Below are positions 1 to 46,274 of a DNA stretch of 64,000 nucleotides, one piece after another. Origin of the DNA: Porphyromonadaceae bacterium (GTDB taxonomy: Bacteria; Bacteroidota; Bacteroidia; Bacteroidales; UBA12481); the NCBI GenBank assembly GCA_007280905.1, contig QYQM01000039.1:1-64000 (forward strand), in the 5' to 3' direction. The position numbers and the translations under genes were made by a program. The number at the start of each line of letters is the position of its first letter. The first letter of the stretch is position 1. Below the pieces are notes generated by a model. That model was not told the origin of the DNA, searched no databases, and saw only the letters and a list, made by a program, of their open reading frames with translations.

Positions 1-970
1 CTGTATAAACTGATTTTTCAATATCCGGACGTTGGGCTTTTGGCATAAACTGCACCATCAGCGCCAGAACCGCGATGGCCGCCAGCACAGCATAGAAAAC
101 CGAAGCTGTTCCGTCGCCCTTCATCATCGAACCTTTTCCCGTAACCACCAGGCTTAACAGCATCGTTGCAACAAGCACCAATACAGGGATGATGACGAGA
201 AGACTGTGAGACTTTAAGACTGGAAGACCTTGAGATGGTTGTCGGTGGTCCGTTGTCGGTGGTCCGTTGTCAGTGGTTCGCGGTACGTCGACTGCCGACT
301 GCCGACTGCCTACTGCGTACTTTTTCATCGCTCCCAAATTCCATCCGAATACCATGGTGAGAACGATCATAATCAGGCTGGTGATGCAGTAAAAGTTCAT
401 GGGCATAGCGCTGACGACCACGCGGAAGGGATTTTGGATTCCCTGGCCGGCAAGGAGAGTCATATAAAAAGCTCCCCAGCTGTTGAATACGATGATGGCC
501 ACCCAGTTGATGCTGATTGAATGGAGAAAATAGGCCAGCTTGGCTCGCGGGATCCCGAGCCGGTCATACAGGCTTCCGACTGTGGTGCCATTGACCATGA
601 TATTGGAGTAATTCTCCAGGATCATCAGGAGCCCGATGGCCCAGGTCAATAGGAATACCGGCCGTTTGGTGCGGATATTCATTGATTCGAGCAGTTGGAT
701 CATCCCTTTAAAACCGCCGGAGTTTTCCATCAGTTTGATCAGTCCGCCGACTAAAACACCGAACAGGATCAGCTGCAGGTTCCCGCGGTTACCGGTGACC
801 CGGATTACCCTCTCGAGGTAATCCACGATAAAGGCCCATTTCGATACCGATAAAAGCAGCGCCGCTGCCAGTCCTCCGACCAGCAAGGCCGGGATGATCT
901 TTTTCTTCCACAGCGCCAAACCAAGGGCGATGAGGGGAGGGAGGATACTTAGGAGACCGAGGTTTGTCAT
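1..970 (-). CDS. Na+/H+ antiporter, NhaC-like family (3' end cut by window start)
   Basis: Minus-strand reading from ATG at 970 stays open to the window edge: MTNLGLLSILPPLIALGLALWKKKIIPALLVGG...GVLVGGLIKLMENSGG...ILENYSNIMVNGTTVGSLYDRLGIPRAKLAYFLHSISINWVAII. Not in the ORF track because it runs off the edge. Confidence 0.8.
   Translation of the reverse strand, partial: MTNLGLLSILPPLIALGLALWKKKIIPALLVGGLAAALLLSVSKWAFIVDYLERVIRVTGNRGNLQLILFGVLVGGLIKLMENSGGFKGMIQLLESMNIRTKRPVFLLTWAIGLLMILENYSNIMVNGTTVGSLYDRLGIPRAKLAYFLHSISINWVAIIVFNSWGAFYMTLLAGQGIQNPFRVVVSAMPMNFYCITSLIMIVLTMVFGWNLGAMKKYAVGSRQSAVDVPRTTDNGPPTTDHRQPSQGLPVLKSHSLLVIIPVLVLVATMLLSLVVTGKGSMMKGDGTASVFYAVLAAIAVLALMVQFMPKAQRPDIEKSVYT
218..325. 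repeat. Degenerate heptamer-type repeat (GTTGTCG/ACTGCCG units) inside the NhaC-like CDS
   Basis: gttgtcggtggtccgttgtcggtggtccgttgtcagtgg ... actgccgactgccgactgcc; on the minus strand it encodes YAVGSRQSAVDVPRTTDNGPPTTDHRQPSQGLPVLKSHS in frame. Confidence 0.8.
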
Positions 971-1052
971 ATTTGTCGGTTATCGGTTGTCGGTTATGAG
1001 AGTTGTGATTGTTGTGAGAGTTGTGATTGTTGTCGGTTGTCAGTTATGAGTA
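963..1052. repeat. Heptamer-type intergenic repeat (GTCGGTT/ATCGGTT) plus 18-bp tandem AGAGTTGTGATTGTTGTG
   Basis: tttgtcggttatcggttgtcggttatgagagttgtgattgttgtgagagttgtgattgttgtcggttgtcagttatgag. Confidence 0.75.
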
Positions 1053-18638: not shown

Positions 18639-19295
18639 TTACTTCTTTAAAAAGTTTTCATCCAGTGCCAGGAACCTGTATCCCGCTCTGGAATAATGGT
18701 CCAAAACCCTGGGCAACGCGTATTCGAGGTTTTCCCGGGCCTTCGGGTTATCATGAAAAACGATGATACTCCCTGGCCGGGCTTTGGAAACCACATTGTA
18801 CATAACTATCCTGGGTTCCAGTTCTCGGTCATAATCCATGCTGAGTACATCCCACAGGATGATCCGGAAACGGGGCATCAGGATGCGGGCAGCCAATGGT
18901 CGGATTCGACCGTAAGGTGGCCTGAACAAACGGGAATCAATCACCTTCCGGGCTTTATAAATATCCTTCACATAACGTCTTAATCCAGTACGATAACTGT
19001 TCAGATGACTAAAGGTGTGGTTGCCTGCAGCATGCCCGGCGCCGAGAATTTTTGCGTATAACTCCGGATTTCCCCTGACATTCTCTCCGACACAGAAAAA
19101 AGTGGCCTTTGCCCCATATTTCTCCAACTCCTCCAAGATCCACTCAGTCAGCCCCGAAACCGGTCCATCATCGAAAGTAAGATAAAGAACAGGTTCTTCA
19201 ACCGGAATTCTCCAAACCATATTCGATGAAATTTTACGGATCCATCCGGGTGGCTTGACAAACAGCGAAATCCTGAGTTTTGTTCCTAACTTCAT
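18639..19295 (-). CDS. Polysaccharide deacetylase family protein
   Basis: LYLTFDDGPVSGLTEWILEELEKYGAKATFFCVGENV...GNHTFSHLNSYRT...RLFRPPYGRIRP (NodB homology motifs). Confidence 0.93.
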   Translation of the reverse strand: MKLGTKLRISLFVKPPGWIRKISSNMVWRIPVEEPVLYLTFDDGPVSGLTEWILEELEKYGAKATFFCVGENVRGNPELYAKILGAGHAAGNHTFSHLNSYRTGLRRYVKDIYKARKVIDSRLFRPPYGRIRPLAARILMPRFRIILWDVLSMDYDRELEPRIVMYNVVSKARPGSIIVFHDNPKARENLEYALPRVLDHYSRAGYRFLALDENFLKK

Positions 19296-21058
19296 GTGGC
19301 TTTAATTCCCAGTTGTTCAATTAATTTGTTAATCTCCTGCACTAACCCAACCTGGTTGTAGGTCTCAGCCATTCGCCTGATTTCTCCAAGCAGAGTGACA
19401 TTTCGCTGAGCATCATCAGACATCATAGCTCCAAATTTCTTTTCCACACTGATTATATACCTGAGATCCTGGTCAATATCCTTGAGATATCCTCTCAGCA
19501 AAGTATTACCCTTGTCAGTTGCTCCGATCTTGTAATACATTTCGGCCAATCCGGCTGTCAGCACATCATTCGGAAAGTTCTCCGAAGGCAGCAATTCTGT
19601 GACCCGGTCAACAACAGCCCTCGCCGAATCCGGTTTTCCCTCGGCGATCAGGGCATCGGCCAGATCGGCAAACCGCTGGCGGAGTCTGAGTATCAAAGTG
19701 GTCCGAAAAGTATTTGAATCGATAAAAACCGATTTATCATTTATGTTCCCCCATCGAAAGGTATTCATCAGGCGATCATATAAAATCCCGGTACTGATTG
19801 AGCCTGTTAACCCGGATTCATCGGTTTCACGTATCGGTACCAGCCGGTAGGCAAATCCTTCGAGACGGAAATATTGCTGCAATCCCAGGATATTTTCATG
19901 GCCCATTGAAGTAAAATAGATGGGCCGCTCCCAGTTATTATGCGCTATCAGGTCGAGGATCATCAGATCGTTTTTATATAAAGATGAACGGCGCAGTTCC
20001 CATATTATTTCGGGCACTATCAAACCGGCATCTTCCGGGGGAACCGTTCCATTGGCAAGAACTTTCTGACGGTCAACTGCTAACCTGAACTTACGCGTCG
20101 GGATGTAGTTCATTGATCCGCCACCCTGCAAAGGTACCGGATCAGAGAGCCATGCTTTACGCTTCATCTGGTCGATATACCAATCGGCGGCCAGGTAAGG
20201 CAGACAGATCACGCGGACATCGGCACGGATTCCTTCTACCTCCTGAGCATACCAGAGCGGGAAAGTATCATTATCGCCACTTGTAAACAGAATGTCGTTA
20301 GGAGCACAGGAATTCAGATAATTATAAGCAAAATCCCGTGCGATATAACGGTTCGAACGATCATGATCATCCCAGTTCTGGACCACCATCAGTATTGGTA
20401 TTCCCAACGCAAGAGCACTTGTCATCCCGGCGAAGGCCGGAACCCCTATCCTCGAAGCACCTCGCCCTGTCATTCCCGCGAAAGCGGGAACCTCTACCCT
20501 CAACGCTCTAACGCCCAATACCACCCAAAAATCTTTCGGCGACCGTTTGAACTGATAAGTCGCACCGGTTAATCCAAGAAGCAGAGGTAGCAGGAAATAC
20601 TTATTTCTGGATTTATTATTCCGTTCATGATCTGGCAAGGCTTCCTGCGGTCCGAGCCGGGCTTCATCGATAAATCCGATACCGCTGATCCAGTTACCGT
20701 TGCGGATACTTCCCTGACTTTCTGTATCATTACGGTGAGTTTCGCGAATTCCCCAACCCAAACAAACCACAACCACCACAACAAACACAACTAAACCTGA
20801 ATTAAACGGTAACCGGATCAGGTTGACCATTTTTGCAACATGTTCCGGGCCAGAAGCAAAGAAGGTAAAAAACCGGCCCAATAGCATAAACAGCGGAGCT
20901 CCAGGCGGATGCCCCACTTCCAGGCGGTAGGCTGAGGAGATAAATTCCCCGCAATCCCACCAGGATACTGAAGGCTCAAGACACAAGACGTAAGTAATAA
21001 GGGAAGTAAAAAGGACGAAAAGGCCGGCTAAAGGATGAAGAATACGCTGGTTGTTCAT
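19292..21058 (-). CDS. DUF2723 family membrane protein, internally deleted and carrying inserted repeats
   Basis: N-term TYVLCLEPSVSWWDCGEFISSAYRLEVGHPPGAPLFMLLGRFF and C-term half NWDDHDRSNRYIARDFAYNYLNSCAPNDILFTSGDNDTFPLWYAQEVEG are DUF2723-like, but the ORF is 588 aa and the middle is repeat/low-complexity sequence. Confidence 0.8.
   Translation of the reverse strand: MNNQRILHPLAGLFVLFTSLITYVLCLEPSVSWWDCGEFISSAYRLEVGHPPGAPLFMLLGRFFTFFASGPEHVAKMVNLIRLPFNSGLVVFVVVVVVCLGWGIRETHRNDTESQGSIRNGNWISGIGFIDEARLGPQEALPDHERNNKSRNKYFLLPLLLGLTGATYQFKRSPKDFWVVLGVRALRVEVPAFAGMTGRGASRIGVPAFAGMTSALALGIPILMVVQNWDDHDRSNRYIARDFAYNYLNSCAPNDILFTSGDNDTFPLWYAQEVEGIRADVRVICLPYLAADWYIDQMKRKAWLSDPVPLQGGGSMNYIPTRKFRLAVDRQKVLANGTVPPEDAGLIVPEIIWELRRSSLYKNDLMILDLIAHNNWERPIYFTSMGHENILGLQQYFRLEGFAYRLVPIRETDESGLTGSISTGILYDRLMNTFRWGNINDKSVFIDSNTFRTTLILRLRQRFADLADALIAEGKPDSARAVVDRVTELLPSENFPNDVLTAGLAEMYYKIGATDKGNTLLRGYLKDIDQDLRYIISVEKKFGAMMSDDAQRNVTLLGEIRRMAETYNQVGLVQEINKLIEQLGIKAT
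20421..20499. repeat. Two REP-like palindromic repeats (GTCATTCCCGCGAAAGCGGGAAC type)
   Basis: gtcatcccggcgaaggccggaacccctatcc (20421-20451) and gtcattcccgcgaaagcgggaacctctaccc (20469-20499); encode VPAFAGMT twice in frame on the minus strand. Confidence 0.88.
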
Positions 21059-45442: not shown

Positions 45443-45469
45443 AAGCGGCGCAAAGATAGAAAAAAAGTG

Positions 45470-45540
45470 ACAAGTGACGAGTGACAAGTGACGGAAAACT
45501 CGTGACACGAAACGCGTCACGCGTCACGTGTCACGTTTGG
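45470..45540. repeat. Heptamer inverted-repeat element (GTGACAA x4 / CGTCACG x3)
   Basis: gtgacaagtgacgagtgacaagtgacgg aaaactcgtgacacgaaac gcgtcacgcgtcacgtgtcacg. Confidence 0.82.
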
Positions 45541-46153
45541 CTCGTTTCTTCATGACTGCTTTCACTATCAGGTAAATAACAAACAATAATCCGACTAAAA
45601 CAACTCCCCACTTTAATTCCTCGTAATACTTTTTAAGCAAATCCTGCTGCGAATAGAAAAAATATCCAAGTAGTGCAAGGATGATATTCCAGATACCTGC
45701 GCCGATGAAGGTCCATAACATGAAGGTTTGAAGCGGCATTTTGGCCAATCCGGCAGGTATTGATATGAGATGACGCACACCGGGCACCAAACGGCCGATC
45801 AGTGTGGAAGTTTTTCCGTTTTTGATAAAGAAATTCTCGGCTTTTTCCACCTTCTCCCTCGTTATAAATATCATATGAGCCCATTTTGTATCAGCAAGGG
45901 CATAAACAATTTTCCGGCCCAGGGTGAATGATATTACATAATTGATGAGCGAACCAGTTAATGCACCTGCGGTTCCCGACAGAATCACCAGGAAGATATT
46001 TAAATCACCTTTAGCGGCAAGATAGGCGGCAGGTGGGATCACCAATTCAGAAGGCATTGGTAAAACTGTACTCTCAATCATCATCAGCAAGAATATCGTC
46101 AGGTAGCTGGTATTCTGCATGTACCAATCAATCACTTGTTGGATGAATTCCAT
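45524..46153 (-). CDS. DedA family (VTT/SNARE-associated) membrane protein
   Basis: SELVIPPAAYLAAKGDLNIFLVILSGTAGALTGSLINYVISFTLGRKI...IGRLVPGVRHLISIPAGLAKM. Confidence 0.9.
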   Translation of the reverse strand: MEFIQQVIDWYMQNTSYLTIFLLMMIESTVLPMPSELVIPPAAYLAAKGDLNIFLVILSGTAGALTGSLINYVISFTLGRKIVYALADTKWAHMIFITREKVEKAENFFIKNGKTSTLIGRLVPGVRHLISIPAGLAKMPLQTFMLWTFIGAGIWNIILALLGYFFYSQQDLLKKYYEELKWGVVLVGLLFVIYLIVKAVMKKRAKRDT

Positions 46154-46205
46154 TTAAACCCAGTTATTTTCGGTAAAACTAGTGAAAATCAGTAAGCGGT
46201 GATGG

Positions 46206-46263
46206 TTATCAGTTGTCGGTTATCGGTTATCGCAGTCAACTGACAACTGACAACTGACAACCG
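46206..46263. repeat. Heptamer inverted-repeat element (GTTRTCR x4 / CTGACAA x3)
   Basis: gttatcagttgtcggttatcggttatcg cagtcaa ctgacaactgacaactgacaaccg. Confidence 0.82.
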
Positions 46264-46274
46264 TTTTCGGTAAA

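Follow-up and report, generated by a model that had tools for sequence, protein, structure and literature searches.

The Antiporter Locus

The window, the whole 64,000-nt stretch of DNA analyzed, opened with the ORF of a NhaC-like Na+/H+ antiporter (Table 1). The gene was incomplete, truncated by the assembly, because contig C33 begins at base 1 of the window; its remainder lay on contig C49. No Pfam match was obtained at 1e-3, and NCBIfam gave a weak match to antiporter models of the Tet(35)/ArcD type, that to Tet(35) falling far below cutoff; the NhaC-like label rests on this match together with membrane topology. The AlphaFold model of the protein had a mean pLDDT of 40.7 and was too poor for use.

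Positions 200-321 combined repeats of 8, 14 and 7 nt, in frame within the antiporter. The initial annotation, that a heptamer repeat of intergenic type runs in frame through this gene, was borne out, with the ORF open throughout and the second allele on C49 showing the same, while the single repeat type it had assumed proved to be three. In the sampled part of the genome (about 2.29 Mb of 4.39 Mb), the word GTCTTAAAGTCT of the period-8 array recurred 24 times, 19 of them intergenic, and GCAGTAGGCAGT from the period-7 array had 10 more copies, all intergenic. Related arrays between genes elsewhere in the window were found upstream of the antiporter and as two inverted pairs (Table 1); the upstream array and the pair at 46203-46268 had also been annotated earlier.

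TABLE 1. Antiporter gene, its repeat-derived loop and intergenic arrays in the window.
Feature	Positions	Strand	Basis and remarks
NhaC-like Na+/H+ antiporter ORF, 323 aa	2-970	-	List of ORFs; ATG at 970-968
Loop residues 218-256 from repeat material, peptide YAVGSRQSAVDVPRTTDNGPPTTDHRQPSQGLPVLKSHS	203-319	-	ORF translation, homolog alignment, hydropathy minimum; between two predicted TM helices
Period-8 array, AAGACTGT on + strand, AGTCTTAA on sense strand	200-228	-	Tandem Repeats Finder
Period-14 array GTTGTCGGTGGTCC x2.9, degenerate double heptamer	238-277	-	Tandem Repeats Finder; 96% matches
Period-7 array CGACTGC/GGCAGTC x4	289-321	-	Tandem Repeats Finder (span 289-316)
Heptamer array TTGTCGGTTATCGG	973-1000		Directly upstream of antiporter start codon
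Period-9/18 array GTTGTGATT / GTTGTGAGAGTTGTGATT	997-1033		Tandem Repeats Finder
Intergenic inverted heptamer pair, AAGTGAC then ACGCGTC	45461-45542		Adjoins tRNA gene
Intergenic inverted heptamer pair, GGTTATC then CAACTGA	46203-46268		Tandem Repeats Finder; flanking genes of unrelated families

Homologs in genomes of the same family were 67-70% identical to the antiporter, and those of full length (~460 aa) 68-70%. Between the same helices, the same-family Bacteroidales homologs had a non-repeat loop of 31-33 residues, compared with 45 here, and Clostridia homologs (25-27% identity) had ~40 residues at the site, again of non-repeat sequence. The clean insertion of ~40 aa proposed initially was rejected because homologs possess a loop of their own at this site, hydrophilic, variable and made up of 31-40 non-repeat residues; the net gain was ~5-14 residues. 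The site is therefore best described as a hydrophilic loop tolerant of change, in which arrays have replaced the earlier sequence and added to its length. Two Bacteroidales MAG records (L207, L208) carried the same antiporter homolog proteins. The homolog of genome G006 (L112:1054-2436; also JAAYIP010000303.1, L207) had an in-frame TAA after residue 269, and is either a pseudogene or affected by a sequence error.

Contig C49 started within the same antiporter gene, and its first 402 bases aligned without gaps to C33 at ~93% identity. In this allele, the repeat was open and in frame and differed from C33 by substitutions with no indels, the frame running on to a stop near base 849. At the period-14 site it read AACTGATAACCGACAACCGACA, a plain heptamer, where C33 had the degenerate double heptamer. 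Judging from the overlap, the two contigs look like adjoining pieces carrying different strain alleles. Between them, the repeat held 6 nonsynonymous and 5 synonymous differences (pN/pS 0.069/0.164), and the following C-terminal flank 2 and 15 (pN/pS 0.014/0.282). These numbers, which are small and come from one allele pair with few sites, suggest that the loop is under relaxed constraint, and on the same footing the array is probably a neutral spacer.

Genome-Wide Distribution of the Arrays

The sampled 2.29 Mb held 119 period-7 arrays, compared with none in order-3 Markov sequence of equal length at the same threshold; array densities in the sample are skewed upward because about 20 stretches were picked for holding the repeat. 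Among the sampled arrays, periods of 14 and 21 were multiples of the basic unit, and periods of 8 and 9 occurred in smaller numbers. The commonest consensus units were AAGGCTC, AACCGAC, AACCGAT and AACTGAC, and no array in the scanned loci matched Rfam.

By gene calls from a simple codon-usage script rather than a standard caller, 25 of the 119 arrays (21%) lay wholly within genes and a further 33 only partly overlapped a gene call. With a coding fraction of 84%, arrays were thus depleted inside genes, yet present there. The intragenic arrays were in the reading frame in all cases checked, and the suggestion that such repeats can enter genes without breaking them held for about two dozen other arrays in the genome. 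Within this genome-wide pattern, the antiporter copy is unexceptional.

That the ORFs contain no in-frame stops follows in part from how ORFs are defined. On the same ground, a phase-specific bias against T where it would create a stop codon (24 C : 0 T at the first codon position) was discarded as circular. Arrays splitting one gene out of frame were sought among pairs of same-strand flanking genes, and none of the 30 pairs represented a single split family, although cases may have been missed among 22 further same-strand arrays and among pairs lacking a family match.

Array density seemed higher in the DNA separating convergent genes (17 arrays in 38.8 kb) than in that separating divergent genes (8 in 62 kb), a preference similar to that of REP-type repeats. 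Contigs C33, C49, C10, C6, C18 and C43 had ends at or near repeat arrays; with several contigs beginning there, the repeats are a probable cause of breaks in the assembly.

Arrays Inside Conserved Enzymes

Arrays lay within genes for TsaD, GltX, IspG, UxaC, MtnA, GH92 and a phosphodiesterase, usually as insertions relative to solved homologs. The array coincided with an insertion of ~11 aa in TsaD, ~15 aa in GltX, 18 aa in IspG, 20 aa in UxaC and 16 aa in the phosphodiesterase; the MtnA array region aligned poorly and adjoined an insertion. IspG had a second insertion, of 16 residues, derived from a different repeat, GVPAFAGMTSAS. Ten arrays were each enclosed by one Pfam domain match. Heptamers took the place of native residues in GH92 and at the first UxaC array, leaving the length unchanged or nearly so, which fits copying better than cut-and-paste. 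In gltX, an inverted array pair flanked native coding sequence, and the pair is therefore not simply both ends of a mobile unit.

In TsaD, a peptide spanning repeat-encoded residues is TDNRQPITDNFQP. In-frame 9-nt arrays adjoined heptamer arrays as NNH repeats in an M3 peptidase and as QQS repeats in UxaC (L101:18116-19999, L150:1506-3002).

Folding and Inverted Pairs

The antiporter repeat RNA folded no better than shuffled sequences (z = +1.07; C49 allele, z = -1.2), and the arrays within TsaD (z = +0.8) and IspG (z = +2.39) showed no stable hairpin either. A hairpin of the type found in Rickettsia palindromic elements (RPEs) was thereby rejected for the intragenic arrays folded. Inverted arrangements accounted for 18 of 27 neighboring array pairs and were common in intergenic DNA, and the three intergenic inverted pairs that were folded formed hairpins with z from -7.8 to -9.5.

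At L106:5868-5958, L109:4085-4202 and L049:11113-11203, inverted heptamer arrays formed very strong intergenic hairpins whose short loop contained GGCTGACTAC or a similar sequence. Inverted AAGGCTC pairs 54-124 nt apart, with inner ends AAGTAAGT, occurred at L048:3839-4029, L147:21-284 and L173:3056-3249. The core between the arms was nearly identical in the L147 and L173 pairs, which together with this core are possibly a small mobile element.

Repeat Families in Related Genomes

Three consecutive AACYGAY units were found in 163 copies in this genome, 26 in G001 and 0-3 in the other relatives, with none for reversed controls. The corresponding AAGGCKC triplet occurred in 205 copies here, 86 in G010, 20 in G004 and 18 in G008. 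These unequal counts indicate that amplification was lineage-specific. In G004, which belongs to another genus, an AAGGCTC array (C29:6990-7017) lay in an open IspG frame (C29:6749-8056) at about residue 83, roughly the position of the other IspG repeat insertion of this genome. The same G004 frame had ~40 extra residues near the heptamer site. For TsaD, judged by match lengths alone, matches in same-genus relatives were longer by 21 nt in G008, G009 and G011 and by 42 nt in G005, steps that equal 3 and 6 heptamers.

Comparison with Known Repeat Systems

The nearest counterpart already described is the TAACTGA heptamer family, direct repeats reported from Beggiatoaceae, Cyanobacteria and some Bacteroidetes (MacGregor, 2015; PMC4679880), with RPEs as a functional parallel. 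TAACTGA is itself one member of the YAACYGA family found here. The arrays of this genome had a 7-nt period far above chance, were mostly intergenic, and had TAACTGA or a close variant as unit. Both systems have mixed heptamers, are largely intergenic with a few reverse-oriented intragenic sets, and are patchy among relatives. The TAACTGA repeats lie mostly just 5' of start codons, with a few reverse-oriented sets in ORFs, mainly at the ends of proteins or within small hypothetical ones (PMC4679880), whereas many copies here lay mid-way in conserved enzymes, and degenerate units (CCGACAA etc.) permitted the stop-prone orientation as well (14 vs 5).

Rickettsia is the best-known case of non-coding repeats spreading in frame into conserved genes. 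RPEs have been described as discrete palindromes of ~150 bp that encode a conserved peptide and are tolerated in frame in unrelated metabolic genes (Ogata 2000, 2002, reviewed in PMC10969869). The likeness to RPEs drawn in the initial annotation held for in-frame insertion, here too tolerated in unrelated metabolic genes, and failed for the palindrome. The arrays here, by contrast, were variable tandems of several sequence families with no palindrome within genes. A discrete unit of RPE length with a conserved peptide was likewise not found, as a 135-nt query from the antiporter repeat matched the genome, beyond the C49 allele, over spans of only 19-47 nt. The Bacteroidota case involves a different, non-palindromic repeat, and its hosts include essential enzymes, among them TsaD, glutamyl-tRNA synthetase and IspG.

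Two further systems are the GGGAATC heptameric G4 repeats of Xanthomonas and Nostoc (PMC4692102) and long simple sequence repeats (Mrazek 2007, as cited in PMC4679880). In the accounts consulted, these too comprise over-represented heptamers, mainly non-coding, with some intragenic and inverted copies; they differ in sequence, and in-frame use in core genes is not among the features those accounts describe.

Related genomes holding the same repeat families in differing numbers offer a natural series for following entry into genes, tolerant sites and any gained function. Structure prediction and annotation call for caution, in that such loops may be repeat-derived.

Proposed Origin of the Intragenic Arrays

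We consider it most probable, at roughly 0.6, that arrays spread or grow regardless of frame and that selection spares just those copies that keep the frame, lack stops and lie in tolerant loops. The genome would carry degenerate heptamer families amplified in its lineage (YAACYGA, AAGGCTC, GGCAGTC, ACGCGTC) along with related 8-, 9- and 14-mers. Arrays would grow or be copied through slippage, template switching or recombination between arrays, ignoring gene borders and frame, and most would settle between genes, often as inverted pairs with strong hairpins. Within genes, purifying selection would purge copies that bring a frameshift, an in-frame stop or a disturbed fold, a filter that the data support. 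The survivors would be mostly of a single orientation and hairpin-free, with a net length divisible by three, and would sit in presumed tolerant surface loops. In the antiporter, three arrays placed end to end would have replaced the original sequence of a hydrophilic loop between the membrane helices, one that varies naturally, and added a little to its length.

The main rival, which we regard as unlikely, is an RPE-like mobile element that relies on a transposase or RAYT-like protein acting in trans to insert discrete units, some of which fall in frame. Recurrence of the repeat types at numerous loci would be expected of such an element, as would different repeats at corresponding IspG regions in two genera and intergenic copies forming palindromic pairs with long hairpins. 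The arrays, however, had no fixed unit, boundaries or length; the intragenic copies were non-palindromic, the gltX pair enclosed native coding sequence and no cargo, and GH92 was overwritten, not inserted into.

A role as contingency loci, with gain or loss of a 7-nt unit shifting the frame and toggling the gene off and on, is very improbable. Hypermutable repeats switch genes this way in pathogens, and because 7 is not a multiple of three, slippage by one unit would indeed toggle a gene. Phase variation is nevertheless unlikely here because the hosts are core enzymes (TsaD, GltX, IspG), whose switching off should kill or burden the cell, and because the observed lengths keep the frame, with TsaD differing in relatives by 21 and 42 nt. 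The degenerate units should also slow slippage, and the antiporter alleles differed by substitutions alone. An artefact or coincidence (a misassembly ~200 nt from a contig end, or a native low-complexity loop of the kind homologs have at this site anyway) is scarcely credible, given that two contigs hold the repeat in frame with allele differences, that the loop words recur in intergenic arrays, and that many unrelated genes show the same where order-3 Markov simulation gives none.

Beyond frame-blind spread followed by selection, one may tentatively go further and propose that an active process generates repeats and continues to place heptamer arrays in core genes, returning to the same sites and giving essential enzymes new in-frame loops. 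This stronger proposal is doubtful; were it true, such ongoing addition would supply raw material for protein evolution.

A Second In-Frame Repeat

A dRS3-like repeat, CCCGCYTTCGCGGG, read as GVPAFAGMT, SRLRGND or SREGGN, was in frame inside genes in 8 of 24 sampled copies. Gene copies included L161:6747-7925 (IspG), L075:13749-15401, L149:10503-11945, L150:9977-11326 and L153:3666-6710. Within the window, a minus-strand ORF of ~589 codons at 19292-21058 contained two dRS3-like copies (VPAFAGMT) and a 9-nt array at 20765-20795.
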